Made by a program: the position numbers and the translations under genes
Assembly: GCA_015063235.1 (NCBI GenBank)
Contig: SUSW01000030.1
Span: forward strand, 1 to 41,366
Length of the DNA: 41,366 nt
Direction: 5' to 3'
Source: Thermoplasmata archaeon
GTDB lineage: Archaea; Thermoplasmatota; Thermoplasmata; Methanomassiliicoccales; Methanomethylophilaceae
Shown here: positions 292-15,055 of the stretch, piece by piece
How the letters are laid out: every line of letters begins with the position of its first letter
Numbering within the stretch: the stretch's first letter is position 1
Notes under the pieces: model-generated
What the model saw: the letters and a program-made list of their open reading frames with translations, nothing else
Told to the model about the DNA's origin: nothing
Databases searched by the model: none

Positions 292-447
292 CTTATCGAC
301 CTGACGTCATCTTGTGAACGATCGACCTTAAAAAACCAACGTCTGTTTGCCCCATCATCTCATCTCGGGCAACAGCCGTACGGTTCATTTCAGACGGTGT
401 TTGCACGGCATGTCATCATGATAAACGATCAGAAATGATCTAACTTA

Positions 448-466
448 CCGGCCCATTATGGGCCGG
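448..466 (+). terminator. Strong GC hairpin, probable terminator
   Basis: Stem CCGGCCC (448-454), loop ATTAT, stem GGGCCGG (460-466), followed by a moderately T-rich AAGATACTTTCTTC. It lies between the partial plus-strand gene and the minus-strand operon and could serve either. A similar hairpin (CCGGCC/GGCCGG) follows the MscS gene at 13773. Confidence 0.6.
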
Positions 467-485
467 AAGATACTTTCTTCATACC

Positions 486-785
486 TCACGCATCGCAACT
501 GTGCGGCAATGGTTTTCCTCTGACTGCCGATTGCGCCTCAACGATATCCGCAACCACAATCATCTTTTTGTCTAAGAACTGAATTGACGCTCCCATGAAT
601 AAGAGAAAACTAATCGCCATCACGGTAATCCTGATGACGGTTACGATGATGGCTCCGATCGCATCGGACAGCTCGTCATCGGTCAGACTGTCGGCAGAGC
701 CTGAATCGGATAGGATGTCGATAAGGGTACTCAGAGTTCCGTCCGAATCCAGATGCTCCAGGATCTCCGTCTTGCGTCCGTTCAT
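486..785 (-). CDS. Small predicted membrane protein, last gene of the surface operon; chimeric 3' end
   Basis: 99 codons. The ATG at 783-785 overlaps the signal peptidase stop as ATGA, so it is translationally coupled to that gene. The N-terminal 40 residues are acidic and Ser/Asp-rich (LDSDGTLSTLIDILSDSGS), then a hydrophobic segment (about 43-66, GAIIVTVIRITVMAISFLLF). The hydrophobic part is encoded by the antisense strand of the direct repeat at 552-668, that is, the complement of the MscS signal-peptide region, and the C-terminus lies beyond the repeat in presumed chromosomal DNA. The N-terminal half is probably the genuine element-encoded part and the rest a fusion created by integration. 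It may be non-functional. No family recognised. Confidence 0.45.
   Translation of the reverse strand: MNGRKTEILEHLDSDGTLSTLIDILSDSGSADSLTDDELSDAIGAIIVTVIRITVMAISFLLFMGASIQFLDKKMIVVADIVEAQSAVRGKPLPHSCDA
552..668. repeat. Left copy of 117-bp direct repeat (candidate attL); orphan 5' end of the MscS-like gene
   Basis: Matches 12413-12529 base for base at an offset of 11861. I find mismatches at 554, 588, 622, 633 and 663 (then 666), with identical runs of 33, 33 and 29 bp. In plus orientation it carries the leader, ATG (595) and signal peptide MNKRKLIAI.VILMTVTMMAPIAS of the MscS-like gene, but the frame then runs into unrelated DNA (the complement of the operon's last gene). It is therefore a 5' remnant, not a gene. 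Confidence 0.85.
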
Positions 786-1366
786 GCGGACCTCTCCTTC
801 TTGATTATCCTGTATATCTCCGAGATGATCAGGAGCACTGCTATGGCGCAGATGATCAGGATGAAGTATTCCTTGACGAAAGAGATGATCATGCCGAGGA
901 AGTGGTCCTTCCCCACGACTATTCCTCTGATATCTTCATACTTCACCGATTCGGATACGAGGGCATTGTCCCCTTTGGTGACCACCTTCCCGGAAGCGGG
1001 GTCGTTGGATACGATCCTATGATGGTTGAGCAGTCCGTGGTAATCGAATTGGATCACGTCGCCTGTCTTCAGATCGGGTTTCTCATCGTCGCCGATGAGA
1101 CGGACCATGACCAGGGAATCCTTCTCTATCGTGGGGATATCGTAATCGGTGAGTTCGCCGTCCATGGAGTCGGTGACGATTATGCGGATGTCCCTGTCTG
1201 TGAAATCCAGGGACCATCCGTTGAGATGGATCATGCAGATGGATGCGAGAACTATGATGATGACGGCCACTAGGATGATGGTAGGGGGACTATTTCTCAC
1301 CCTGCGGCCGTCTTTAAGACGGATGGGTGCTGGGCACCCATCGGTTTGAGTAGGTTGTTGGTCCAA
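782..1366 (-). CDS. Signal peptidase I, archaeal/SipW-like (S26B)
   Basis: 194 codons. It cleaves signal peptides at the outer face of the membrane. Visible features are an N-terminal membrane helix (about residues 29-47), the catalytic serine motif VTDSMDGEL, a GDVIQF box, the HHRIV motif where ER/SipW-type enzymes carry the catalytic His instead of the bacterial Lys, a TKGDN box and a C-terminal membrane helix ending KKERSA. Its place after TasA-like genes suggests a dedicated peptidase for them. The longest frame starts with TTG at 1366, 4 nt after the BspA stop and just after a GTGATC. A GTG at 1298-1300, downstream of two hairpins (1308-1342), is an equally plausible start giving a shorter cytoplasmic end. 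Confidence 0.88.
   Translation of the reverse strand: MDQQPTQTDGCPAPIRLKDGRRVRNSPPTIILVAVIIIVLASICMIHLNGWSLDFTDRDIRIIVTDSMDGELTDYDIPTIEKDSLVMVRLIGDDEKPDLKTGDVIQFDYHGLLNHHRIVSNDPASGKVVTKGDNALVSESVKYEDIRGIVVGKDHFLGMIISFVKEYFILIICAIAVLLIISEIYRIIKKERSA
1308..1342 (-). promoter_or_regulatory. Two adjacent hairpins at the BspA/signal peptidase junction
   Basis: GATGGGTGC (1322-1330), loop TGG, GCACCCATC (1334-1342) is a perfect 9-bp hairpin. CCGTCTT (1308-1314) and AAGACGG (1316-1322) form a second, directly adjacent. In the minus-strand transcript they lie just after the BspA stop codon. They could attenuate or process the message so that peptidase is made at a lower level than the surface proteins, and they bear on which peptidase start is used. 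Confidence 0.55.
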
Positions 1367-1370
1367 GCGA

Positions 1371-4300
1371 TCACATCGTAGTCGTCAGCGATGCTGTGTA
1401 GGTGTTGGTGCTCGATTCATAACCTGCAAGGTTGCCTAGAGTATACGACTTGCCATCTTCGAATGATGTCACCCAATTGCCTTCGGAATCGGCCCATATC
1501 GGCAGGAACGTTGTGCTCGTCACGGGAACGATCATCAGATTTCCAGCCTGTATGAACTTGTATGCATCCGGGACCATGAAAGTGAACTCGCCCACATCCG
1601 TCTTTGAAGTTAGTGTCTGAATATCTGCATCCTTGAATGCGTCGGCACCCATTGTAAATGCATTAGACCTCATGTATACTTTAGTGGCTGCGAAAGCATT
1701 TCCGTTCAGAGATACGGTTTTCAGAGATGTGCATCCCTCGAAGGCTCCAGATCCCAGTGATATCAGCGATTCAGGCAGGTCCACTTTATAAACATAGGTG
1801 CATCCTTTGAAAGCGTTCGTACCCACGGATGTCAAAGTATCCGGGAACGAGATCGAGACAAGATGGTTCTTGATCCCGTCCTGTGTGAACAGGTCCGTTG
1901 ATATTGAGCTAATACCCGCGAACACAATGGTTGTGATCCTCAATCCATCCCACGCACTTTTATCGGCAGACTGCAAATCTTCATAATTATAGAAGTCACC
2001 AGAGCCAATAACAACCATGACATCTTCGCTAACGAAAGCCCCTATGCTTGATCCAACAGATATGGCACCGGAACTGGACTTTATCCAGACTGTCTTTTTA
2101 GGTATACTTTCAGTGATTGCTTGAGCATCGCCTTCTCCGTTCAGTTTGAACTCAATATCGGTGTACGTCGGAGTACCGTCGAATGTGGAGAACACATTAG
2201 AGCCGAAGGTCACATTTCCCGATGAACCGAGGATTATCACTGATCCGATCGCACCGTGTCCTGCGAATGCATAGTCCCCTACACTGTTCAGGGAAGAGCC
2301 GAGTACCAGAGACGCTATCGTCCCTGATGAAGCGCTGGAGCTTCTGATAAAAGCACTGGCCCCTATGGATGTTACAGAATCAGGAATCGCTATAGATCCT
2401 GTCAGATTGTTGTTAGCGAATGCATTGTTCCCGATGGTCTTCAGATTGTCTGGTAAAGAGATGCTTTCAACAGATGTCATTCCGTTGAAGACATTGTTTC
2501 CCAAATTGGCAAGTGCTGGAGCGTAGAATGATATTTGTTCGATTGATGACAAGTAAGAACTCCATCCTCTGTCATCCGGATCGATTGTAAAGTCCTTCAT
2601 CCGTTGAGTAACTGCTGTCGGGTCCTTGCTTATGATGATTAATGACTTGCTTTCTTTTACGTAGACGGCATACAGAGTCTTATCCGAACCATATGATATA
2701 TCGTATGATGTGTCAGGGAGCTGGTCCGAGGTGGAGTAAATGTGCCCTCTGCTCACACTGCTGTAGTCTACAGTACCTCCTGTAACAATCGGAACCACGA
2801 AGTCCTTATACCATTGTACCGACGCCGGGATCGAATCGGTCTTCCATGTGATGGCACCCTCTCCGGTACCAGACTCAAGTTGGAATGATCCCAGGGTAGC
2901 CGGGAATGCTCCCGACCCGATATTTCTAACATTGACACCTACTATGATGCTATTCAATTTACCGCAATCCGCGAACACGTAATTCCCGATATTTACGGTG
3001 GAACCCAATATAGCGGAGCTGATGTCTCCACCATAGAAAGCATAATCGTCCAGAATGGCAGTGTTTGAAAATCCTACGGAGGTCAAGGTTGTGTTGGCAA
3101 AAGCGTGTTCGCCCACCGTGGAAGCATTATCTGGGATGGTGTAAGATCCTGCCTTTCCTTCAGGGCATAGAATGACCTTGGCACCCGAATTCGCCTTTGT
3201 AAGGACAACACCCTCCTCAGTACCGGTGTAATGATCATTTCTGTCTGAGACAATCAGTTTCTCCAGGTAGGTGCATCCTGCGAATGCCTGCGGGTCCAGA
3301 TAAGTCACGTTGCCAGGTATGAACACGTAATCAAGATATGGTGAACTGGTTACCCCGCTCCCGCAGTCCTTAAACGCGTATTTGCCGATTGTGGTGCAGG
3401 AGTATGGTATGCATAAAGCCGTTAGATTGACTAGCCCAGAGAATGCACCTTCGCCTATACCCGTGATCCCCTGCTGTAGCATGAGATACTTGATAGAAGA
3501 TGCGTAAGAAGCCCAAGGTGCTGACGCTGTATGATCGATGACCACATCATTGCCTAAGATGACTAATGTATCCTCGTTAAGAATGAACCACCAGAAGCTA
3601 CCCCCAACCTTATTGGTGGCGTGATGAATGGCAAGGTCCCCTTGTGTGGATAAGAATGTGCGGGAAAGTCCGTCCGTTGATTGATGCGACAAAGTGCTGA
3701 TTACACGACTCGAATCCACAGTCCATTCCGTTCCAGATAAACTATAGGTATACCAATTGCCTTCAACATCATTCCTGAATTGGAAATTGCCTTGATCTGC
3801 AGGGAGCAGTATAACGGTGCTATTCTTGGAGTTGAAATAAATGCGATATGGCGAGAACGTATCTATGCCAGTGTCTGAGACGTTTGCAATCGAGAGCACA
3901 CGGGTCGGTCTCGTCTCTCCATATCCATTTACGCTGTAAGGGTGATGTATCGCATTCCCTAATTGGATGAGGGGAGCCGTCAACCTCGGACCATTTTGAT
4001 TCGTTACATACAATTCACGCAATGATTCTGGAGCAATGAATGAATTCTTATTGTGCAGAGAAGAAGAGCTTTCAAACGACGCTCCCGGTTTCACTATAGT
4101 ATTCACTTGATCGCTGGAGCTGGAATATCTGTACCCATCCACATATAAGCATCCCATATAGGATTCAAACGTGTCATTATCATCAGACACGACGATCTCA
4201 ACAATATTCTGACCCTTGTAAAACGGAGTAAGAACCGCGCTTGAGGAAGCTGGGCCATCCATGCTTTCCAAATTTCTGTGTAAATAGAGAACAGGGATAT

Positions 4301-6248
4301 TTTTACTGGTCATGAGCTGATCTTCTAGAAATGTAACAGATTCGGGGATGTACAGGTAACCGATCGATGAACCTCTGCAAATTTTTTGGCCGGTACCTGT
4401 AATACCGTACTGAATCATAACATATGCAGGTTTGTTATGTTCGTAAAAACCATAGCTATCGCTGCCACAATCTAGCATGTTCCCTAAACCAGCATAGAGA
4501 CCAAACTTGATTGTCCTTCCAGAAGCATCAGCATACCATTCATGAGTCTGAATCGTAGCCTGTGAATGGTATGATGCCCAACCTTGCGAGCTAGAAAGGT
4601 CGGATTGGGAACTCCCCAGGTCCAGACGTGAATATACCGTACCAGCTGTCAGAGAAGAGAGGGCGGCACTTTGTCTTACATAACCGCTGCTGGCAGAACT
4701 GAAAGAATAATATTGGTCCGCAGCAAATGCCGGAAAGCCTCCGCTGCATGTAACACTCGATGGTTCGGATTGTAATGAGGAAGAATCCGGGTAATCCACG
4801 ACAATCACAGTAAGTCTGGCGCATCCGCTGAAAGAATCTACAGGAACCGAGGTTAGATTATTGGTGATCGAGGCCATCAGCATCTGTCCACACCCTTTGA
4901 AAGTTTCCGATCTCGGCACATTATCATAACCGACCTTCGTTGCAAGGGTCGTCATACCATGGTTGAATTGTACCATTTCCAGCGAGGAATTCATGAATGC
5001 CCTGTAGCCCAATCTGGTAAGACTTTCAGTGAATGTGCAATATTTGAGGGGTGAACCGAAGAATGCGTAATCTCCAATCTCTGTTGTCCCGTACGGGATT
5101 ATATAGATTTTTGTACCTGTAGTATCCGTTCTTTTTACCCCGTCACCCATATGGGCGTAGGGATACTTCACCAGCATAAATCCCGTAGGAGTGTCCTTGC
5201 TTCCGATATACTTGAAAAGCACACCATCCTTAGAATAGTAAGAAAGGTTGCTGGGTTCTACATTTATCTCCTTCAGTCCAGTACATCCGTCAAAGGCGAA
5301 CACGCTGACGGAGTTGCATGCTGAGGGGATATCCAAGACGGTTATTTCGGTGCATCCGCAGAATGCGAGGTCGCCAATCGTGTTAACGGTGAAGGGCATC
5401 GATATCGATGTGAGATTGCTGCCACCCATGATGGCTCCCGCGGATATCGTCTGGCATCCAGTCAGAATCGAGAACGAAGCCGCTGTTCTGGCTGCAGGGT
5501 ATGCATACAGAAGTCTCTTATCCTTCGAGTAAAGTGCATCGGAGTCCATGTAGAAGTTCTCATTATGCCCGGTGTTGGTAAACTTTGTCAGATTCTTGGC
5601 CCCTGCGAAGGCACCGCCTTGGATCGAAGAGAGCGTGTCAGCGGAGAAAGGGGATGATGTAGGGACATCGAATGAGGTGCCCGATTTTGCACAGGGGTAT
5701 GCGACCAGCGTAGCATAATCCGAAGTGTATAGGACATCATTCACTGCCACGAAAGAGGAGTTCCCGGTCGCGACAGTGAATGAGGCGAGATTGCTGCATC
5801 CTGCGAATGCTCCGTTCCCTATCTCCGTTATGTTGGCCGGAACCTGATAGGAAGTGAAACCTGCATTGGTGAATCCGTAGAACGCATATGCTCCTATGGA
5901 TGTGATCGCACGTCCCTCTTCCGCACCTATGGTGATCGCGGTTATATCGGCACGCTGGTCGTACCAAGGGGCCTCACCCGGCAGGTAGTCCGGCATAGTG
6001 CCGCTCGAAGTGCAACTGATCGTGAGCGTGCCGCTGGTTACATTATATGACAATCCCTCGGCCGGCACGGCCTCGGACTCCTCTCCGATAACGATGAAAG
6101 CAGCTGCAAACACCACCAGAATCGCCGTCATAGAAACGATGAGAGCCTTCTGGGGAGTCATCACACCCTTTGTTTGAGCATCCCTGCTCGACACATCCCT
6201 GTCATCGGAGACTTTTGTTCTTCCTTCCACTTTATTACGAGAATCCAT
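1371..6248 (-). CDS. Giant BspA-type leucine-rich-repeat surface protein
   Basis: 1625 residues. It has a short cytoplasmic N-terminus, a hydrophobic signal/anchor (about residues 34-55, ALIVSMTAILVVFAAAFIVIG) and then long arrays of BspA/TpLRR (LRR_5) units with the signatures GAYAFYGF, GNGAFAGCSNL, IGDLAFCGCTEI, IGEGAFSGL and VGTNAFKGCT. The arrays are grouped in blocks opened by a Trp-containing segment (APWYDQ, GWASYHS, APWASYAS, GWSSYLSS), suggesting internal duplication. No C-terminal membrane helix or sorting motif is seen, so retention would depend on the N-terminal helix or on partners. BspA proteins mediate binding to host matrix or other cells. The start is firm: AAGGAGGA lies 8 nt upstream, and the ATG is one base after the stop of the InlB-repeat gene. 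Confidence 0.9.
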   Translation of the reverse strand: MDSRNKVEGRTKVSDDRDVSSRDAQTKGVMTPQKALIVSMTAILVVFAAAFIVIGEESEAVPAEGLSYNVTSGTLTISCTSSGTMPDYLPGEAPWYDQRADITAITIGAEEGRAITSIGAYAFYGFTNAGFTSYQVPANITEIGNGAFAGCSNLASFTVATGNSSFVAVNDVLYTSDYATLVAYPCAKSGTSFDVPTSSPFSADTLSSIQGGAFAGAKNLTKFTNTGHNENFYMDSDALYSKDKRLLYAYPAARTAASFSILTGCQTISAGAIMGGSNLTSISMPFTVNTIGDLAFCGCTEITVLDIPSACNSVSVFAFDGCTGLKEINVEPSNLSYYSKDGVLFKYIGSKDTPTGFMLVKYPYAHMGDGVKRTDTTGTKIYIIPYGTTEIGDYAFFGSPLKYCTFTESLTRLGYRAFMNSSLEMVQFNHGMTTLATKVGYDNVPRSETFKGCGQMLMASITNNLTSVPVDSFSGCARLTVIVVDYPDSSSLQSEPSSVTCSGGFPAFAADQYYSFSSASSGYVRQSAALSSLTAGTVYSRLDLGSSQSDLSSSQGWASYHSQATIQTHEWYADASGRTIKFGLYAGLGNMLDCGSDSYGFYEHNKPAYVMIQYGITGTGQKICRGSSIGYLYIPESVTFLEDQLMTSKNIPVLYLHRNLESMDGPASSSAVLTPFYKGQNIVEIVVSDDNDTFESYMGCLYVDGYRYSSSSDQVNTIVKPGASFESSSSLHNKNSFIAPESLRELYVTNQNGPRLTAPLIQLGNAIHHPYSVNGYGETRPTRVLSIANVSDTGIDTFSPYRIYFNSKNSTVILLPADQGNFQFRNDVEGNWYTYSLSGTEWTVDSSRVISTLSHQSTDGLSRTFLSTQGDLAIHHATNKVGGSFWWFILNEDTLVILGNDVVIDHTASAPWASYASSIKYLMLQQGITGIGEGAFSGLVNLTALCIPYSCTTIGKYAFKDCGSGVTSSPYLDYVFIPGNVTYLDPQAFAGCTYLEKLIVSDRNDHYTGTEEGVVLTKANSGAKVILCPEGKAGSYTIPDNASTVGEHAFANTTLTSVGFSNTAILDDYAFYGGDISSAILGSTVNIGNYVFADCGKLNSIIVGVNVRNIGSGAFPATLGSFQLESGTGEGAITWKTDSIPASVQWYKDFVVPIVTGGTVDYSSVSRGHIYSTSDQLPDTSYDISYGSDKTLYAVYVKESKSLIIISKDPTAVTQRMKDFTIDPDDRGWSSYLSSIEQISFYAPALANLGNNVFNGMTSVESISLPDNLKTIGNNAFANNNLTGSIAIPDSVTSIGASAFIRSSSASSGTIASLVLGSSLNSVGDYAFAGHGAIGSVIILGSSGNVTFGSNVFSTFDGTPTYTDIEFKLNGEGDAQAITESIPKKTVWIKSSSGAISVGSSIGAFVSEDVMVVIGSGDFYNYEDLQSADKSAWDGLRITTIVFAGISSISTDLFTQDGIKNHLVSISFPDTLTSVGTNAFKGCTYVYKVDLPESLISLGSGAFEGCTSLKTVSLNGNAFAATKVYMRSNAFTMGADAFKDADIQTLTSKTDVGEFTFMVPDAYKFIQAGNLMIVPVTSTTFLPIWADSEGNWVTSFEDGKSYTLGNLAGYESSTNTYTASLTTTM

Positions 6249-6249
6249 T

Positions 6250-8667
6250 TCAGTTCCTCCTTTTGAAATACAGTGCGGTTATCACCAGACATAATACCAC
6301 AGCGATGGCGATCAATATCCACCATGGGAATCCGCCGTCCTTGCTGTCGATGTCCTCCGCAGTCGCCAGATATACGGAGAAGTGCGTAACGGTGAACGAC
6401 ACCTCCCCTGTTTTCGTATCATAGGACGATTCCACGATCTCGTGGGAGCCGTCCTCCTGAATGTAATAAACGAAGATGTTTCCTTCCAAACCCGGTTCAA
6501 GGGCTATCGATGCCTTTCCTCCGATGTCGTGCACCTGCTCCGTGCCGCGCATCATCGTCACGACGACGGCGAACCCGTCGCCTACGACATTCAGCTGCTC
6601 AGGAGTGAGGTTCTCGGGGGTGCCTCTCTCCATCCTGATGACGGTATCCTCTCCGGCCGATGCGGCTGTAGAGATCACGCTCTCATCGAGATACATGCTT
6701 CCCGAATCCGTGATGATATACAGCCCGTAGCCCTCATCGGACAGCGATGCCAATGCGTCCGAGCCTATGGTCAGAGCGCTGGACACATCGAAGGTTAGCG
6801 TAGGCTCGGCCTTTACACCGTGAGTCTCCAGGAATTCCCTTCCGGAGCCGGCCTGCGACAATACCTTTTCGATTATCTCGTCGGTCACGGCATCATATTC
6901 GACAACGGCATCCAGAGTCTTCTCCGATGGATCGTAGATCGTTGTCACGGACGTATCATCGAGATGATCGGTCACTTCGTATGATATCATCGTGACATCC
7001 CCGGATGCGTTCTTGTTGACGGCCTTGTCCTCCTTCGTGATGAACTTCCCTTCGGGATCGGCCATTATCCTCTCGTATGTGTACTCTGTGGAGGAATCGG
7101 GATGCGTGGCTAGTGTCTCTTCGATATGCTCCGTCCTTCCGTCGGGATATATCCTGTCGATGGTATCCTTCTCGATGACCGTGCCGTCGGGGAGTTTTCT
7201 ATCCTCATGCTTCTCCTTCTCCTCTCCGGAGAATTCCCACTGGGCATATATGGTGACATCCGTCTTTCCCATCCGTGTGGATGAGGTTACCTCGGATCCA
7301 CCTTCGCGGGAGTCGAACCATCCCTTCAGGATGTAGTCCTCGCGCTCAGCGGAAGGGAGCGTCCCATACTGTGAGCCTTCGGCTATCGTCCTGGACGTTT
7401 CCGAAGGCGTTCCTCCGTTCCCGTCGAAGTACAGCATATGCTTCTCGGCCTCGCCCCACACCGCGTAGAGAGTTGTCGTGTCGGCCACGATTATCTCGCT
7501 TCCTCCGTAGTAGCTGGGGCTTCCGGTTGGTGTCAAAGCCCAGCCTTTGAACGAGCTACCGTCCTTGGTCGGCTCCTTTTCGGAAACGATGAAAGTATGA
7601 ACGGCCTCCTCGCTGGTATAGCTCTGCGTTCTCGGAGCGTCCTTTCCGCCGTTCGCGTTGTATTTCAATGTGAATGTCTTGTAATCGGGTCCCGGACCGG
7701 GCTCCTCCTCCCACTTCGCCTGGAGGTTCATGTCAGTCGTGCCCATCAGGGTGTCCTTGGTGACATATGCTGTTCCATCATGCCATCCTATTAGCTCGTA
7801 TCCCGACCTGCTCACCGAAGGGAGATCGCCGATCGGCTCTCCTTCGGTCATATATTTGCTGGGGATCTCGGAAGGCGTTCCTCCGTTGCTGTCGTAGGTC
7901 ACGAGGTGCTGATCCGTCCAATGGGCCTTGAGCGTGACATCCTCGGTGCCCATCACGGTATCTGCATCCACCTTGGTATCGCCGTCGTACCATCCGGCGA
8001 ATACCGCGGCGGTCTTGGTGACTGTCGGGAGCTCCCCGTATGCTGCGCCTGCTTCGAGATATCTGCTCTCAGGCATCGGTTCTCCGCCGTCGGGATCGAA
8101 TGAAAGCTTGTAGACTCCGTCTGTCTCCGCTCCGAATATTATGCTGACCGAGGGATCGCGCGGAACGTCGGTCATCTCGTAGTATTCTGCCGTCTTCAGA
8201 ACGATGTAGTAATTCGTATCCCTCTGGAATTCTGTTTTCTCTCCATCGGTCTGGAAGAACACCAGATCCTCCGTGAGGTTGGCTACCGATGTTCCCAGGA
8301 GGGTTGTCCTCTCCTTGTCCGAATAAAGTTCGGCTTTTACCTTTGTGTGCTGCAGGAACTGCTGGGCGCCGGTGACGGCGAATCCTATGTAGCATTTCTT
8401 GTCGATGGGATAATGGACTTTTACGTAAGAGGGGTCCGTCGGGATAACAGTGTCCGCCGGTATCAGAAAGACTCCATCCTTATTGTTGACTTGAATAGAC
8501 CCATTGATCAGCACATCGCCATCGGTATAGGCTGTGCCGTCGTCGTGGTATATCCCTGTACCGATATCACTCTCTTGAGCATCGGCGGACGGGACGATGA
8601 ATGTGAGCGATGCTACAACAAGTAGCATGACCAGAGCCGAGGATGCGATGACGGATCTTCTCATCAT
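6250..8667 (-). CDS. InlB B-repeat surface protein with C-terminal membrane anchor
   Basis: 805 residues. A signal peptide (VIASSALVMLLVVASLTFIV) is followed by a beta-rich domain (about 35-190). Four Listeria-Bacteroides (InlB B/flg_new) repeats follow, each with a (D/N)(G/P)(N/D)GG start, a central GW and a closing W (FAGWYDG, LIGWHDG, FKGWALT, LKGWFDS). Then come about 300 residues of unassigned beta-rich sequence and a C-terminal helix WWILIAIAVVLCLVITALYF ending KRRN. This is a typical membrane-anchored stalk/adhesin. The ATG overlaps the stop of the preceding TasA-like gene (ATGA) and has GAGGTG upstream; a second ATG follows immediately. The repeats match those of the surface protein at 33949, outside the element. 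Confidence 0.88.
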   Translation of the reverse strand: MMRRSVIASSALVMLLVVASLTFIVPSADAQESDIGTGIYHDDGTAYTDGDVLINGSIQVNNKDGVFLIPADTVIPTDPSYVKVHYPIDKKCYIGFAVTGAQQFLQHTKVKAELYSDKERTTLLGTSVANLTEDLVFFQTDGEKTEFQRDTNYYIVLKTAEYYEMTDVPRDPSVSIIFGAETDGVYKLSFDPDGGEPMPESRYLEAGAAYGELPTVTKTAAVFAGWYDGDTKVDADTVMGTEDVTLKAHWTDQHLVTYDSNGGTPSEIPSKYMTEGEPIGDLPSVSRSGYELIGWHDGTAYVTKDTLMGTTDMNLQAKWEEEPGPGPDYKTFTLKYNANGGKDAPRTQSYTSEEAVHTFIVSEKEPTKDGSSFKGWALTPTGSPSYYGGSEIIVADTTTLYAVWGEAEKHMLYFDGNGGTPSETSRTIAEGSQYGTLPSAEREDYILKGWFDSREGGSEVTSSTRMGKTDVTIYAQWEFSGEEKEKHEDRKLPDGTVIEKDTIDRIYPDGRTEHIEETLATHPDSSTEYTYERIMADPEGKFITKEDKAVNKNASGDVTMISYEVTDHLDDTSVTTIYDPSEKTLDAVVEYDAVTDEIIEKVLSQAGSGREFLETHGVKAEPTLTFDVSSALTIGSDALASLSDEGYGLYIITDSGSMYLDESVISTAASAGEDTVIRMERGTPENLTPEQLNVVGDGFAVVVTMMRGTEQVHDIGGKASIALEPGLEGNIFVYYIQEDGSHEIVESSYDTKTGEVSFTVTHFSVYLATAEDIDSKDGGFPWWILIAIAVVLCLVITALYFKRRN

Positions 8668-9686
8668 AACACCTCTTCGGTGGTCTCCAGCATCGTCAGA
8701 GTGATGCTTGCCGGTGATCCGGTCGAAAGCTGATGGGGGCTCGTGCTCGATGAGTCCTTACCTATCGATTGTATCTCCAGCGATCCGTAGAACGCTCCTC
8801 CGGTGAGCTTCACCGGGAGGGTGACCGTCCATTTGTTCTCTGAATCGATGTAGCATGATTGCGACACCGAAGTGCCCCTTATAGAATCGTACAGGATGGC
8901 AGTGACCATTCCCCTGTAGCTTTCGCTTGCATACCAGGTGGAATCGTATGTGGCCTCCAGCTTCAGTACCGCGAGGTCGGAGCCTGTGGCGGGAGAGTTG
9001 GTGTATGATATGTTGGACGTGGTGGCGTATGAGCCGGACGATCCCGTGGTGGTCATGGATGATGCCTTCAGCATCCCAGTGGCCGTGAGATCGGTGTGAT
9101 ATGCCGTCATGGTTATGGCGGGCGATGATATGTTGATGTCCCTTGTTGCGTAGGGCGTGATCATCAGAGCTATCCTTCCGATGAAGGAGCTCTTCTCGTC
9201 GCCTTCGGAGGCGACGGTGGAGAAGGAGTTGCCGACTATGGTGCATCCTCCGTCCGATATGACCGATGTGGCCGAGGATCCTCCGATCCTCAGCGTGACT
9301 GTGGATCCGTTGAGATCCGATAATCCTGAAAGGGTCACCTGGAGCGCAATTATCGTTCTGTCTCCTCTCACCACGCCGCTTCCTTCCTCTGCGGGCGTTC
9401 CGGTGAGCTCTTCGGTGTCCCTGTATGCCAAATAGTAATGCGTATCTCCGTCCGACGATGCGTCGAAGGTCTCGCCTGCCGTGACGCTGTCGGGCATGTT
9501 GGAGAACAGATTCGACACAGGGTATTCCTGCGTTCCTGTGGAATCCGAGACGTACAGGATGGAATAACGAGTGTCCACGCTGTTATCGTCCACGGTAGTT
9601 ACTCCGCTGTAGTACGCATACCCCACAGCCATACTCATGACGGCTACGCAAACGATTGTTGCGATGATCATTGTGCTTGTTTTCAT
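8664..9686 (-). CDS. TasA/SipW-substrate-like secreted beta-sandwich protein 2
   Basis: 340 residues from the chosen ATG (9684-9686), which has GGGAGG about 8 nt upstream; an upstream GTG that overlaps the previous gene would add 23 residues without signal-peptide character. The signal segment TMIIATIVCVAVMSMAVGYAYYS leads into TTVDDNSVDTRYS, resembling SipW-dependent signal peptides (hydrophobic core, AY-aromatic-S, then T...DN). The rest is Ser/Thr/Gly-rich beta sequence with no membrane anchor, fitting a secreted fibre subunit. The first gene of the operon has the same junction motif, so the two are paralogues. Assignment to the TasA/camelysin/archaeal bundling-pilin group is inferred from this motif and the adjacent SipW-like peptidase, not from an alignment. 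Confidence 0.65.
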   Translation of the reverse strand: MKTSTMIIATIVCVAVMSMAVGYAYYSGVTTVDDNSVDTRYSILYVSDSTGTQEYPVSNLFSNMPDSVTAGETFDASSDGDTHYYLAYRDTEELTGTPAEEGSGVVRGDRTIIALQVTLSGLSDLNGSTVTLRIGGSSATSVISDGGCTIVGNSFSTVASEGDEKSSFIGRIALMITPYATRDINISSPAITMTAYHTDLTATGMLKASSMTTTGSSGSYATTSNISYTNSPATGSDLAVLKLEATYDSTWYASESYRGMVTAILYDSIRGTSVSQSCYIDSENKWTVTLPVKLTGGAFYGSLEIQSIGKDSSSTSPHQLSTGSPASITLTMLETTEEVL

Positions 9687-9714
9687 TCTTCGTTCCTCCC
9701 ATCCATGGTGGGGT

Positions 9715-9730
9715 CCGCCCCGAAGGGCGG
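9715..9730 (-). promoter_or_regulatory. UUCG-tetraloop hairpin between the two TasA-like genes
   Basis: In the transcribed (minus) strand the sequence is CCGCCC-UUCG-GGGCGG, a very stable 6-bp stem with a UUCG loop, just after the stop of the first gene. No T-run follows. It may protect the 3' end of the first message or reduce read-through, so that the first subunit is made in excess. Confidence 0.6.
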
Positions 9731-9751
9731 TAATATGTTTGATTCGAATCA

Positions 9752-10750
9752 TCACGCAGTCACGTCGTATGCTCTGTAGAAGACGTCATCTCCGCCGTTC
9801 GCAGAGAATGCAACGATAACCTTTCCATTAGCAGTGCCGGTCTTTGCGACGCCCGTGATACTATGGGAAGCGGTGTTTGCGGTTGCATTCGCTCCGTTCT
9901 TGTATGCTATGGACAGCTCGAACGCACCGTCCTTGATCAAATCCGTAATGACATATTCGGTTCCAGATGCATCTTTGTCACCGTTCGCTACGTATGTGAT
10001 GGTGCCTGAAGTGATTGTTTCAGTCTTGGCGATGTGCGTAACGATTCCCTGGAATACGATATCTCCGGAAACGTTACATTTTGCATCATTAACATGTTCG
10101 AGAGTCGTCTTGGTAGGGGTCGCTGCAGTTTCCATCGTATCCTCTCCAAGATACACTGTAGCGTAGCAGTTCTCATTTGCCTTGATGTGGTATCCCTTGC
10201 TGAGATCAGTCGCATCAACTTTGTCCAGTGCAGGTGCAGGGATGATCGCAACATAAGTGTTGGTTCCGCTGTCATTGTTAGTCACCGGGAAGAACTGAAT
10301 GTAAGATGTGACTGCACTGTTGGTAGCCCCCAATCCAAGCCAGAGGCTAGCGTTTGATCCGATGCTGACATTTTCGATAGTAACCTGGAAGTCGAACTTT
10401 CCTGTAAGGTCCGTGGGCGCCTTGATATCATATGCAGTAGCGGCGGAGAGCACTGTCATCATTTTTTCAGTTGTAGTATTGTAGGTAAAGTTAGATCCGG
10501 ATGGGGAGATCTCAAAATATGCTTTGTTTTTGTAGGGAACAGGTGCGTCAGAGTCTGCTACATGATATGTGGTATTAAATTCCAGATCCTTCTGTATCGA
10601 AGCCATATCGGTTTCGACAGAAAGATATTGAACATTCACCGCGTTGTCTTCAACGGTCGTCTGTCCCCAGTAGGCTGCAAATCCTGCACCTACGATGGCG
10701 ACAGCTGCGACCGCCAGGATGGCGATCATTGCGATTGATCTTGTATTCAT
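9752..10750 (-). CDS. TasA/SipW-substrate-like secreted beta-sandwich protein 1 (first gene of operon)
   Basis: 332 residues from the ATG at 10748-10750, preceded by AAGGTGA; longer in-frame starts up to 10840 add only charged sequence. The signal segment SIAMIAILAVAAVAIVGAGFAAYWG runs into QTTVEDNAVNVQYLSVE, the same junction as its downstream paralogue (TTV-D/E-DN-A/S-V). The mature part is Asn/Thr/Ala-rich beta sequence (for example KFDFQVTIENVSIGSNASLWLG) with no anchor or cysteine-rich region. A secreted fibre or matrix subunit processed by the peptidase at 782-1366 is the best reading. It ends with an ATGA/GTGA-type overlap with the next frame, and a UUCG hairpin follows. Confidence 0.65.
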   Translation of the reverse strand: MNTRSIAMIAILAVAAVAIVGAGFAAYWGQTTVEDNAVNVQYLSVETDMASIQKDLEFNTTYHVADSDAPVPYKNKAYFEISPSGSNFTYNTTTEKMMTVLSAATAYDIKAPTDLTGKFDFQVTIENVSIGSNASLWLGLGATNSAVTSYIQFFPVTNNDSGTNTYVAIIPAPALDKVDATDLSKGYHIKANENCYATVYLGEDTMETAATPTKTTLEHVNDAKCNVSGDIVFQGIVTHIAKTETITSGTITYVANGDKDASGTEYVITDLIKDGAFELSIAYKNGANATANTASHSITGVAKTGTANGKVIVAFSANGGDDVFYRAYDVTA

Positions 10751-10967
10751 TTTTCTCACCTTTTCGTGTATAGAATCGTCAGATTCCATTCGGACAGAAA
10801 GCATGGATCTGCCTCTATCCTGAGGTTCCTTGACAGTCAAAGCCGTGTTATTAAATCCGAAAATAAAATTAGTGAAATCGTAGAAAATTCGATAATTTCA
10901 AATGTAATCATCAAAAATTCTACGATAATAATCAATAATACCATTTTTGATAAAATCATGGAATCCG
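10751..10967 (-). promoter_or_regulatory. AT-rich promoter region of the surface operon with inverted repeat
   Basis: This strongly AT-rich gap precedes the first TasA-like gene. It contains a perfect 9-bp inverted repeat, ATCGTAGAA (10877-10885) and TTCTACGAT (10918-10926), with centres 41 bp apart, a spacing suited to a dimeric or looping regulator. Several TATA-like A/T runs are present and I cannot choose the one used. No gene is seen in this gap. Confidence 0.5.
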
Positions 10968-12062
10968 TTAAATACGCTGAAATGGTGCTGATGTTGAGGA
11001 AAAAGCAACGGTCAAGGTCATGTGACTAGTCACATGGTTCGAATCTTCGGATTTAATAACTTCGGGGTACCCTCCGCCCTCGATTTCTTCTTTGTTGGTC
11101 TCAGGAAATTTACCATCTCCGCCGTCTTCAGGTGTAACCATCACAGGCACCTTGTCCAGCCATCCGAAGCCGGTATAATCGTCGGAATCGTCGTTGATAT
11201 GCTCCGACAGCTCCTCACAGCAGATCTCCGTCCATTCGTCTGTCCTCAGGCCGCTGGGCCTGATGTAGCATTCAAGCGTGGTATTGATATCGGAGTGCCT
11301 CATGAGATGCTTTATCGTCTCAAGGGGGCATCCGCACTCTGCCAATGTGGAGCAGTACAGCCTCCTCAATGAATGACAGGACACCTCGATGCCCAGTCTC
11401 CTGCCCAGCCTTGAGATCCTGTTCGACATGGCCGGCAGATGCCTGTACATCGGTATCGCTCCGTGCTCGGACACCATGATGATCAGATGGTCCTCCTCAT
11501 CCTCTGCATACTGCAGCCTCCATTTGAGATATCCCTCGATCTCGATCCTGATATGATCCGGCATCGGCTGTTGAACAACCAATCCGTTCCTCCCGTGGCC
11601 TTTGCCCGAGACCCTGATCCTGTTGATCCCTATGTCGCCCAGCCTTATCGCCCCGATCTCCTTCCTCCTCAATCCCATGTATGCGCCCAGCATCAGGACC
11701 ATCCTCTCCGACGGGTCGGCCGCGTCCAGCAGACGGTTGAACTCGTCCTTGTCGATGAACTTCCTCGTGACCTCATCCCTGTTCCAAAGAATGTCCATCC
11801 TCTTCACAGGATTTCTTCCCGTGTGATATTCGCAGAACCTGCCGATGATGTTCATCGTATTCTTCATGGTGTTCTCGCTCATTTCCAGGATCGACATCAG
11901 CAGAGCGATGGATTCCTCCCCTATATCCTCCGGTTTGATAGACATCTCGTTCTCGGCCAGGATGCCCAGGCACCTGCCTATGACGAATCTGTAATGCTCT
12001 ATGGTGGTAGGCGATCTGTTCCTTCTCTCCAAATGCGTAAGATAATCCTCTATGCAGTCCAT
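10968..12062 (-). CDS. Tyrosine recombinase/integrase
   Basis: 364 residues from the ATG at 12060-12062, which has AGGGGGA upstream; a start at 12086 would add 8 residues. The N-terminal SAM-like core-binding domain (about 1-95) contains IEDYLTHLERRNRSPTTIEHYR. The catalytic domain carries Arg132 (GLRRKEIGAIRL), Lys154 (SGKGHG), His230/Arg233 (CHSLRR), His256 (MRHSDINTT) and the nucleophile Tyr266 (LECYI). All catalytic residues are present, so it is probably active. After Tyr266 comes an unusual tail of nearly 100 residues, rich in Asp/Glu and Gly, whose last part spans an 18-bp palindrome (11019-11036). It lies beside the right direct repeat, which fits an element integrase; control of surface-gene inversion is an alternative. 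Confidence 0.93.
   Translation of the reverse strand: MDCIEDYLTHLERRNRSPTTIEHYRFVIGRCLGILAENEMSIKPEDIGEESIALLMSILEMSENTMKNTMNIIGRFCEYHTGRNPVKRMDILWNRDEVTRKFIDKDEFNRLLDAADPSERMVLMLGAYMGLRRKEIGAIRLGDIGINRIRVSGKGHGRNGLVVQQPMPDHIRIEIEGYLKWRLQYAEDEEDHLIIMVSEHGAIPMYRHLPAMSNRISRLGRRLGIEVSCHSLRRLYCSTLAECGCPLETIKHLMRHSDINTTLECYIRPSGLRTDEWTEICCEELSEHINDDSDDYTGFGWLDKVPVMVTPEDGGDGKFPETNKEEIEGGGYPEVIKSEDSNHVTSHMTLTVAFSSTSAPFQRI
11019..11036. repeat. Perfect 18-bp palindrome CATGTGACTAGTCACATG
   Basis: The sequence reads identically on both strands and lies inside the 3' end of the integrase frame (coding for NHVTSH). As RNA it gives a 7-bp stem with loop CUAG, and a T5 run occurs about 20 nt further along the minus-strand transcript. 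It could be a recombinase or regulator binding site, or a terminator for the integrase message. Confidence 0.7.
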
Positions 12063-12412
12063 GTTATTCCCCCTGTCTGATGGCATGCGTCTCCGGATTC
12101 CCCCGGAGCGCTTGTTCCCATCGTCAATTCCATCAAACGTTGAGACATAATTGGTATTCAGCGGTTCCCTTACCGAACGTTAGGCGCGATGTCGGAAACA
12201 TATGTTGTTTTCTTCCGGGACGGCCAGTCATAGGTACAACAAACAAACCGGCTGCCTCGCGCGTCGCGTATATATCTATCAAATCCCCTGCATTCCGAGG
12301 GATTGCCCCGGGAACCCTTTGACCCTCAGGACTTGGAGAAGGGGTCCGTGGCCAACCGCTATCCGTCGGGCCCCTGAAGAAGTTTCAGGTATCGCCGTTC
12401 CACCATAGGCAT
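12063..12412. other. Right-end non-coding region of the element with hairpins
   Basis: About 350 bp without a credible gene. It contains a hairpin at 12091-12108 (CTCCGG/CCGGAG) just upstream of the integrase start, a TATA-like GCGTATATATC near 12266-12276, and a strong hairpin at 12340-12375 whose arms AGGGGTCCG and CGGGCCCCT pair fully with one G-U. The last hairpin lies about 37 bp from the direct repeat and could bind recombinase or shape the MscS leader. Confidence 0.5.
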
Positions 12413-12529
12413 AATCACAATCATCTTTTTGTCTAAGAACTGAATTGATGCTCCCATGAATAAGAGAAAACTAATCGCCATCGCGGTAATCCTAATGACG
12501 GTTACGATGATGGCTCCGATCGCCTCCGA
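12413..12529. repeat. Right copy of 117-bp direct repeat (candidate attR)
   Basis: This copy forms the leader, start codon and first 24 or so codons of the intact MscS-like gene and matches 552-668 with 5-6 mismatches. One mismatch changes Thr to Ala in the signal peptide, one is silent, and one lies in the leader. Confidence 0.85.
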
Positions 12530-13724
12530 AGGCACCGAAGCGATCAGCCAGAACGATTACAGCATCGTCATCGCCGGATACTACGATTCGGATCACAAGC
12601 AGGATGTGAACATAGATCTGACCAACGGACAGAACGTCGAATCGTCATTGTACATATACAACAAATATGACAAGGACCTCGACATCCAGTTCACGGTCCG
12701 TTCCTACGCGGACGAAGTACAGTTCACATCCGTTCCGGGAACGACGATGGTCAAGGCCCATGATATGACCCGCCTGACATTCTCCATAGCAGTCGTACCG
12801 ACCTGCAACTCGATGAAGGACGTGAATCTCAAGATGGGGATAACGATTACAGAACTGCCGGATAACGTCTCCGTTACCGAAATCATCAATTTCAATGTCA
12901 ATGTCATCTCAGAATACGATTCGGACGGATCCTACAACAAATTCTTCGGCTTCATAGAGAACAACCTTCCAGAGCCCTTCAACACCTCGATAACGCCATT
13001 CATAGCGTCTATGATCGCATACATTTTACTGTCATACCTGGCTTGCATAATTATCGTACCTAGGCTGGCGAACTTCTTCAACCGTATGACCGTGCACGAT
13101 GATCAGAAGAAATTCGAGAAGATCTTTACCTCGCTCGTGGTTCTGTCCATCGGAATAGTGACGATCAATCCCGGATTGGTCATACTTGGTGCGGATGCTT
13201 CCATCCTGGACCTCGCATTCAGGCTCACCATGACCTTCGTCATAATTACGGCATCGTTCGCCATCTGGAAGATCTACATCTACATTGTGCAGAACCTCCT
13301 GTATGAATACGAAAAAATGGACGATTCTGTCCTGGACACCTCCCTCATGCCGGTATTCAGCACCTTCGGAAAGCTCATAATCTGCGTGTTCGCCGCAGCG
13401 TGGCTGATGTACCTGTACGGATTCAATCTACAGGGCATAATAGTAAGTGCCGGTCTGATCTCATTGGGTATAACGATGGGTGCTCAGAGAGTACTTTCCC
13501 AGTTCTTCAGCGGAATCTCGCTGCTGCTGACGAAACGTTTCCGCAGAGGAGACCATGTGAAGATAAACGGTGACGATTTCATCGTCAAGAAGGTCAAACT
13601 CATGTACACCGAGTTCACCAACAAGGACATGAGCGAGGTCATCACCATCCCCAATGACAGAGTTGAATCCGCCGTGATCCGCAATTCCGATGCGGATCCG
13701 AATGCGGAAGAGGATGAGGAGTGA
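12456..13724 (+). CDS. MscS-family mechanosensitive channel with extracytoplasmic N-terminal domain
   Basis: 422 residues. A signal peptide (KLIAIAVILMTVTMMAPIAS) is followed by an extracytoplasmic beta-rich domain (about 28-165) and a membrane region of about four helices (about 180-335). The MscS pore and beta-domain follow: GLISLGITMGAQRVLSQFFSG is the pore helix, then RRGDHVKINGDDFIVKKVKLMYTEF and a TIPND motif. The frame stops soon after the beta-domain with an acidic tail (DADPNAEEDEE), so the usual C-terminal alpha/beta vestibule is missing. MscS channels open under membrane tension and release solutes during osmotic downshift. The start is supported by the signal peptide; no Shine-Dalgarno is evident. 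Its 5' end is the duplicated segment. Confidence 0.88.
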   Translation: MNKRKLIAIAVILMTVTMMAPIASEGTEAISQNDYSIVIAGYYDSDHKQDVNIDLTNGQNVESSLYIYNKYDKDLDIQFTVRSYADEVQFTSVPGTTMVKAHDMTRLTFSIAVVPTCNSMKDVNLKMGITITELPDNVSVTEIINFNVNVISEYDSDGSYNKFFGFIENNLPEPFNTSITPFIASMIAYILLSYLACIIIVPRLANFFNRMTVHDDQKKFEKIFTSLVVLSIGIVTINPGLVILGADASILDLAFRLTMTFVIITASFAIWKIYIYIVQNLLYEYEKMDDSVLDTSLMPVFSTFGKLIICVFAAAWLMYLYGFNLQGIIVSAGLISLGITMGAQRVLSQFFSGISLLLTKRFRRGDHVKINGDDFIVKKVKLMYTEFTNKDMSEVITIPNDRVESAVIRNSDADPNAEEDEE

Positions 13725-14459: not shown

Positions 14460-14525
14460 AGTATAACCTAAAGGGTCGGATGTGTGCTACTGATTAAAAA
14501 TATAACGCGTAATCGACATTTCCAT

Positions 14526-14626
14526 AAGAACCCCCAGGACAAGAACTAGTGTTCCAAAGCTTACCTTGTCCTGGAAGCGGTCCGGCTATTGTCCGAACTG
14601 CTAAGATGGTTCGTATCATAACGAAC
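14526..14626. repeat. Three-hairpin repeat unit, copy 1
   Basis: H1 pairs CCAGGACAAG (14534-14543) with CTTGTCCTGG (14565-14574). H2 pairs GCGGTCCGG (14577-14585) with CCGAACTGC (14593-14601), with one G-U and one mismatch. H3 pairs GTTCGT (14609-14614) with ACGAAC (14621-14626). The unit differs from copy 2 at only two bases (14546 and 14617), both in loops. Confidence 0.85.
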
Positions 14627-14865
14627 AGGGACTTCTTGACGTTCGATGTTCTAAAAACTCGCTCAACCATCTTTGCTTACCGAACATACGATAGTTCCGA
14701 GAGCCTAAGAATTGAAAAGCTAAGATAAAGGGCTCATGCTTATACTGCAGAAGAGATTGTATCGGTTTGCCAGGCAAGGAGGATGTCCAGCACGTGAGGA
14801 CATCCCTTGTGTAGCTGGACAGAGTCCTGTCCTGAGAACTGAATCGGAGGTGAGAACCTATGAGG

Positions 14866-14966
14866 AAGAACCCCCAGGACAAGAAATAGTGTTCCAAAGC
14901 TTACCTTGTCCTGGAAGCGGTCCGGCTATTGTCCGAACTGCTAAGATGGTTCGTATAATAACGAAC
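14866..14966. repeat. Three-hairpin repeat unit, copy 2
   Basis: Identical to 14526-14626 at an offset of 340 apart from two loop bases (14886 and 14957). A UUCG hairpin (14969-14986) follows immediately. Confidence 0.85.
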
Positions 14967-15055
14967 CAGAGCCCCTTCGGGGGCTCACACTCTCGTGCTC
15001 TTAGCAAGTCATCGCCGTATAGCATATATAACTAGCTCTCCGGCTTCCAGCCCTG

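Follow-up and report, generated by a model that had tools for sequence, protein, structure and literature searches.

A surface-protein operon and its tyrosine integrase, probably integrated at the 5′ end of an MscS-like gene in a methanogen of the Methanomethylophilaceae

The DNA described here is one whole contig (C29, 41,366 nucleotides, which we call the window) from a Thermoplasmata archaeon, a methanogen of the gut and a relative of Methanomethylophilus, whose genome belongs to the same genus as the 30 relatives we searched. Our evidence is comparative and MAG-derived. Near the left end of the window lies a direct repeat of 117 bp (552-668), the partner of which sits at 12413-12529. A sequence-only reading of this stretch had picked out the pair, and it is real: the copies are 95% identical over 117 bp, with 6 mismatches, 3 of them in a 106-bp core (557-662). 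Together they enclose an 11.9-kb element whose genes, a surface operon of six and a tyrosine integrase, are all encoded on the minus strand. This is much as that reading had described it, a surface-protein operon with a complete recombinase beside the right repeat.

The operon begins with two secreted fibre-like proteins that have similar, SipW-type N termini. The first (9752..10840, minus strand) occupies the same operon position in two other genomes, G012 and G028; close homologues of the second (8664..9755, minus) occur only in those two genomes, in both cases within the same operon. A structure model of the second protein, built without an alignment, reached a pLDDT of 37. Then come an InlB-repeat (Flg_new) surface protein (6250..8667, minus; Pfam PF09479, 4e-45), with a C-terminal membrane anchor read from its sequence, and a BspA-type leucine-rich-repeat (LRR) surface protein of 1625 aa (1371..6248, minus; Pfam LRR_5, 1e-95). 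A SipW-like signal peptidase (782..1366, minus) matches the NCBIfam SipW model at 1.5e-5, which is below the family cut-off, and in G012 and G028 its homologues likewise close the operon. After the signal peptidase, the ORF list adds a small reading frame (486..785, minus) with no convincing family match, the first 39 codons of which are element DNA while the remainder reads into the left repeat. The Bacillus TasA/SipW matrix-fibre operon also pairs secreted proteins with a SipW-like signal peptidase of their own (PMC10151520), but neither of our fibre-like proteins matches a solved structure in the PDB by sequence, and we claim no homology.

The integrase (10968..12086, minus; Pfam Phage_integrase PF00589, 1e-17) lies 327 bp from the right repeat. 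In alignment, its catalytic residues are complete, and the R-K-H-R-H-Y set (R140, K162, H238, R241, H264, and Y274) is invariant in four relatives. The intergenic stretch from the integrase toward the repeat (12087..12401) is 90% conserved in RGIG3602, a goat-rumen MAG labelled Candidatus Methanomethylophilaceae that is the nearest named relative. A TATA-like motif lies at about 12268. Around it, a 45-nt motif (12236-12280, with the core CTGCCTCGCGCGTCGCGTATATATCTATC) is 81 to 96% conserved in five congeners whose surroundings are otherwise unrelated; in one of the genomes, G029, it lies just past the 3′ end of an HTH gene resembling one we describe below. The conserved stretch 12290-12412 was considered as a folded RNA, but it folded no better than shuffles on either strand.

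We found no relaxase, type IV secretion, or replication gene among the window's ORFs between the repeats. A tRNA or other RNA gene as the target was set aside, the window having no tRNA gene and nothing above threshold in Rfam. Nor did we find a known ancestry for the element. Viral contigs held no relative, the integrase being 37% identical to that of Methanomassiliicoccales virus vir215, and plasmid matches reached only about 25% identity.

What the element adjoins is an MscS-like channel-type gene (12456..13724, plus strand; Pfam MS_channel_2nd, 3e-10). The right repeat (12413..12529, plus) opens its full reading frame of 422 aa, start codon and signal peptide included, as the sequence-only reading had proposed. 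The left repeat (552..668, plus) carries the same 43-nt leader and 24 codons, after which its reading frame departs from the MscS sequence, at codon 25. It is thus the orphan 5′ end that the reading took it for. That reading also held that the promoter is restored. The repeat contains only 43 nt before the MscS ATG, in which we saw no clear TATA box by eye, and restoration of a promoter there is something we infer.

The repeat might have been a widely mobile signal-peptide module. It is not: among 60 genomes (the archaeon's own, the 30 congeners, and 29 more distant ones) it occurs only at the present locus, with no third copy. If an element had entered at this point, some relative should have the left flank, a single repeat, and the right flank joined together, as the sequence-only reading predicted. 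The MscS 5′ region of RGIG3602, used as a query against that MAG, led to contig G060:C239, which is just such an uninterrupted site. It matches 446-668 of the window at 97% identity and 12413-12908 at 93%, and the two matches overlap in a single repeat copy, so that the left flank (446-551) runs through one copy straight into the MscS gene, as far as 12908. The flank shared to the left of the repeat is only 106 bp (446..551, plus); it begins with a terminator-like hairpin, is contiguous with the single copy, and would be the original chromosomal neighbor of the MscS gene. At this site the MscS gene itself has decayed, with ATA for ATG and a truncation after about 150 codons (L113, G060:C239, about 4760-5280), which leaves the junction argument unaffected.

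The empty site also disposes of one alternative almost completely, namely that an MscS paralogue was once duplicated, leaving the left copy as its remnant, and that the operon just happens to lie between two paralogues. The archaeon does have further MscS-family genes, four in all, including a tandem pair on contig C23. These are only 34 to 37% identical, whereas the repeats are 95% alike with sharp ends on both sides, and the contig in RGIG3602 has the left flank connected to the right gene by one copy. We regard this explanation as scarcely credible.

A three-way comparison of the left copy, the right copy, and the empty site around the start codon is more telling still. Wherever the copies can be told apart between 535 and 588, the left one matches the empty site, save at one position where the empty site stands alone. 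From 12530 onward, the match is with the right copy, save for a few positions at which one sequence differs from the other two. Between 588 and the equivalent of 12530, the informative positions disagree: the right copy is favored at 622 and 663 and the left at 633 and 666, and positions 622, 633, and 666 depart from a single clean crossover. Read from the alignment, this switch is the signature of an attL and an attR, with the crossover within the MscS 5′ end, at 588-663. Since the left copy matches only to 588 and the right copy later, the leader of the present MscS gene, and possibly part of its first codons, would be derived from the element. The reading frame runs intact through this 5′ sequence.

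Our preferred explanation, which we hold to be highly likely, is that an integrative element entered the 5′ end of the MscS-like gene by site-specific attP × attB recombination. The attB would consist of the 43-nt leader and about 23 signal-peptide codons of the gene, and the attP of the element would carry a near-copy of it. Integration would leave an orphan MscS 5′ end at the left, while at the right the gene would acquire an element-derived leader, and possibly first codons, in frame with the original gene. The integrase beside attR most likely carries out the reaction. Its action at this site is inferred, as are excision, expression, and transfer.

On another RGIG3602 contig (L064), an integrase 91% identical to ours lies directly upstream of a second MscS gene, the protein of which is 77% identical to that in the window. 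An HTH gene lies between the two, and of this gene the window retains only the last codons (12385..12401, minus; alignment of L064 4162-4390 with the window), the rest being deleted. Similarity between the window and L064 ends at 12401. A near-identical copy of the L064 MscS gene occurs on RGIG3602 contig C269 with different upstream DNA, including a peptidyl-prolyl isomerase gene, and the divergence begins about 80 bp before the ATG. With so similar an integrase upstream of a diverged MscS paralogue, the MscS 5′ end looks, on these alignments, to be a recurrent integration target.

Within the MscS 5′ end, there is a feature that an integrase could recognize. A dyad of two 11-bp arms separated by 11 bp begins 16 bp after the A of the ATG, spans codons 6-16, and is common to both MscS types. 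The arms are TAACCGCCATC/GATGACGGTTA in one and TGATTGCCATC/GATGACAATCA in the other, three pairs differing by compensatory changes. Pairing is 10/11 in both the empty site and the L064 paralogue, 9/11 in the left copy (611..643, plus), and 8/11 in the right (12472..12504, plus). None of 400 column shuffles reached the observed dyad with its compensatory changes, and a 10/11 dyad was absent from all 34 other MscS starts (the two RGIG3602 copies were left out). Such conservation suggests a protein-binding site, and we predict that the dyad, a candidate so far, is likely to be the core site that the integrase binds. An inverted repeat at 616-653, found in the left copy alone, was weak by comparison (12/300 shuffles) and was dropped.

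These observations bear on the main rival explanation, in which a circular plasmid with an MscS 5′ fragment was integrated by homologous recombination, Campbell-style, with the integrase as a passenger. Homology over 117 bp would give the same junctions, and on contig C37 of G028 a Rep-like gene with an HUH-like motif is found next to a related module. Yet the integrase abuts the site, another genome has a near-identical integrase next to a different MscS copy and at the equivalent position of the gene, and the candidate binding site is conserved. We think homologous recombination unlikely.

Integrase and operon recur as a unit in G012 and G028. Close relatives of the second fibre-like protein occur in 3 of the 60 genomes (G000, G012, and G028), which are also the three with the closest integrases; after the window's own, these are 67% and 58% identical. 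The gene order (integrase, fibre-like proteins 1 and 2, InlB, LRR, signal peptidase) can be read directly on contig C35 of G028. In G012, it is read on C21 up to the InlB gene, the end of the LRR gene and the signal peptidase being on C3. The part from InlB to signal peptidase occurs again on C7 and C37 of G028, and integrase starts lie at the ends of C38 and C37. We found no gene for the second fibre-like protein in RGIG3602, which is a fragmentary MAG. Around the related modules (G028 C35, G028 C38/C7, and G012), a search for direct repeats gave chance-level matches only, so that a shared target in the wider family is no more than a possibility. A second integrase on C35 of G028, 3 kb from MscS genes, was also rejected as a parallel, for it is separated from them by other genes and shares no linking repeat with them.

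G028 itself has at least three related integrase/adhesin modules, on C37 (L065/L083), C38 (L066), and C7 (L103). On C37 and on C38, one terminus lies in an integrase start, the two starts being identical over their first 127 bp; a terminus of C37 and one of C7 fall within near-identical InlB repeats. The shared ends suggest several near-identical copies and perhaps a circular plasmid; C37 may be circular, though its ends fall in repeated genes. C37 also holds a second integrase-family gene and, at L065 5753-7171, a Rep-like protein of 472 aa with an HFH (HUH-like) motif and CxxC pairs. The protein has no Pfam or PHROG match, and a relative adjoins the integrase module on C35. It is possibly an undescribed rolling-circle Rep, and G028 is the only genome where such a gene neighbors related modules. 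With a Rep-like and a second integrase-family gene on C37, related modules may travel on plasmids.

Could the integrase instead excise and reinsert the operon as a reversible switch, giving phase variation within one lineage rather than transfer between lineages? Direct repeats permit excision, and the cargo consists of surface proteins. The patchy distribution across species and the different loci in relatives point to transfer, however, and the present copy shows no replication or retention function for an excised circle. We consider such a switch very improbable. With integration as the preferred explanation, the SipW-type signal peptidase, the two proteins with SipW-type N termini, the InlB-repeat protein, and the giant BspA-type LRR protein would together alter the surface of the recipient. 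The swap of a whole surface programme, as the sequence-only reading had it, is a possible outcome, and host-associated methanogens could in this way gain adhesin sets as one unit.

How unusual is the site? The same reading had called a protein-gene target unusual for archaea. That part does not stand as put, for 14 of 68 mapped integrated elements in Thaumarchaeota lie in protein genes (PMC6563490). What does stand out is the position: those elements, also archaeal and also defined by direct repeats and empty sites, are all 3′-distal, whereas ours is at a 5′ end (PMC6563490, PMC8371274). Archaeal elements of the SSV, pNOB8, and pT26-2 types share a tyrosine recombinase, att repeats, and a restored target gene (PMC8371274), but their targets are tRNA genes and their att sites about 40 to 60 bp, against a repeat of 117 bp here and no tRNA. 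For archaea, we met no such 5′-end integration in a protein gene in the literature searched, which was not exhaustive.

Bacteria do offer precedents, in which 5′-end targets, prfC and dusA, receive a new N terminus (PMC8409611). The SXT/R391 ICEs at prfC and IMEVchUSA3 at dusA carry an integrase, use the 5′ end of a protein gene, and supply an in-frame start and N terminus through attR (PMC4344509, PMC8409611). They differ in being bacterial and large, conjugative or mobilizable, and in having had their promoter activity measured; the target here encodes the signal peptide of a membrane protein. A clean archaeal case, backed by a genuine empty site, of an element entering a protein gene at its beginning would mean that the prfC/dusA strategy reaches into archaea. 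A 2021 review of archaeal recombinases describes protein-gene att sites as untested and asks whether they have dyad symmetry (PMC8371274), a question on which our locus also bears. Here is one dyad, with compensatory changes. More tentatively, and we would sooner bet against it than for it, an integrase lineage in the Methanomethylophilaceae may have specialised on the signal-peptide start of the multicopy MscS-like family, recognizing a dyad in coding sequence and using these sites as docking points for the exchange of whole surface-adhesin operons between gut methanogens.

Downstream of the MscS gene, a separate observation concerns an ORF-free, highly structured candidate RNA at 14520-14985 (plus strand). 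It matches no Rfam family, has a folding energy z of −6.7, and includes a duplication (98%) of a 101-nt module. Relatives are present in several congeners as well as on contig C44 of the same genome, and an alignment of 11 sequences gives 22 pairs, 9 of them with compensatory changes.
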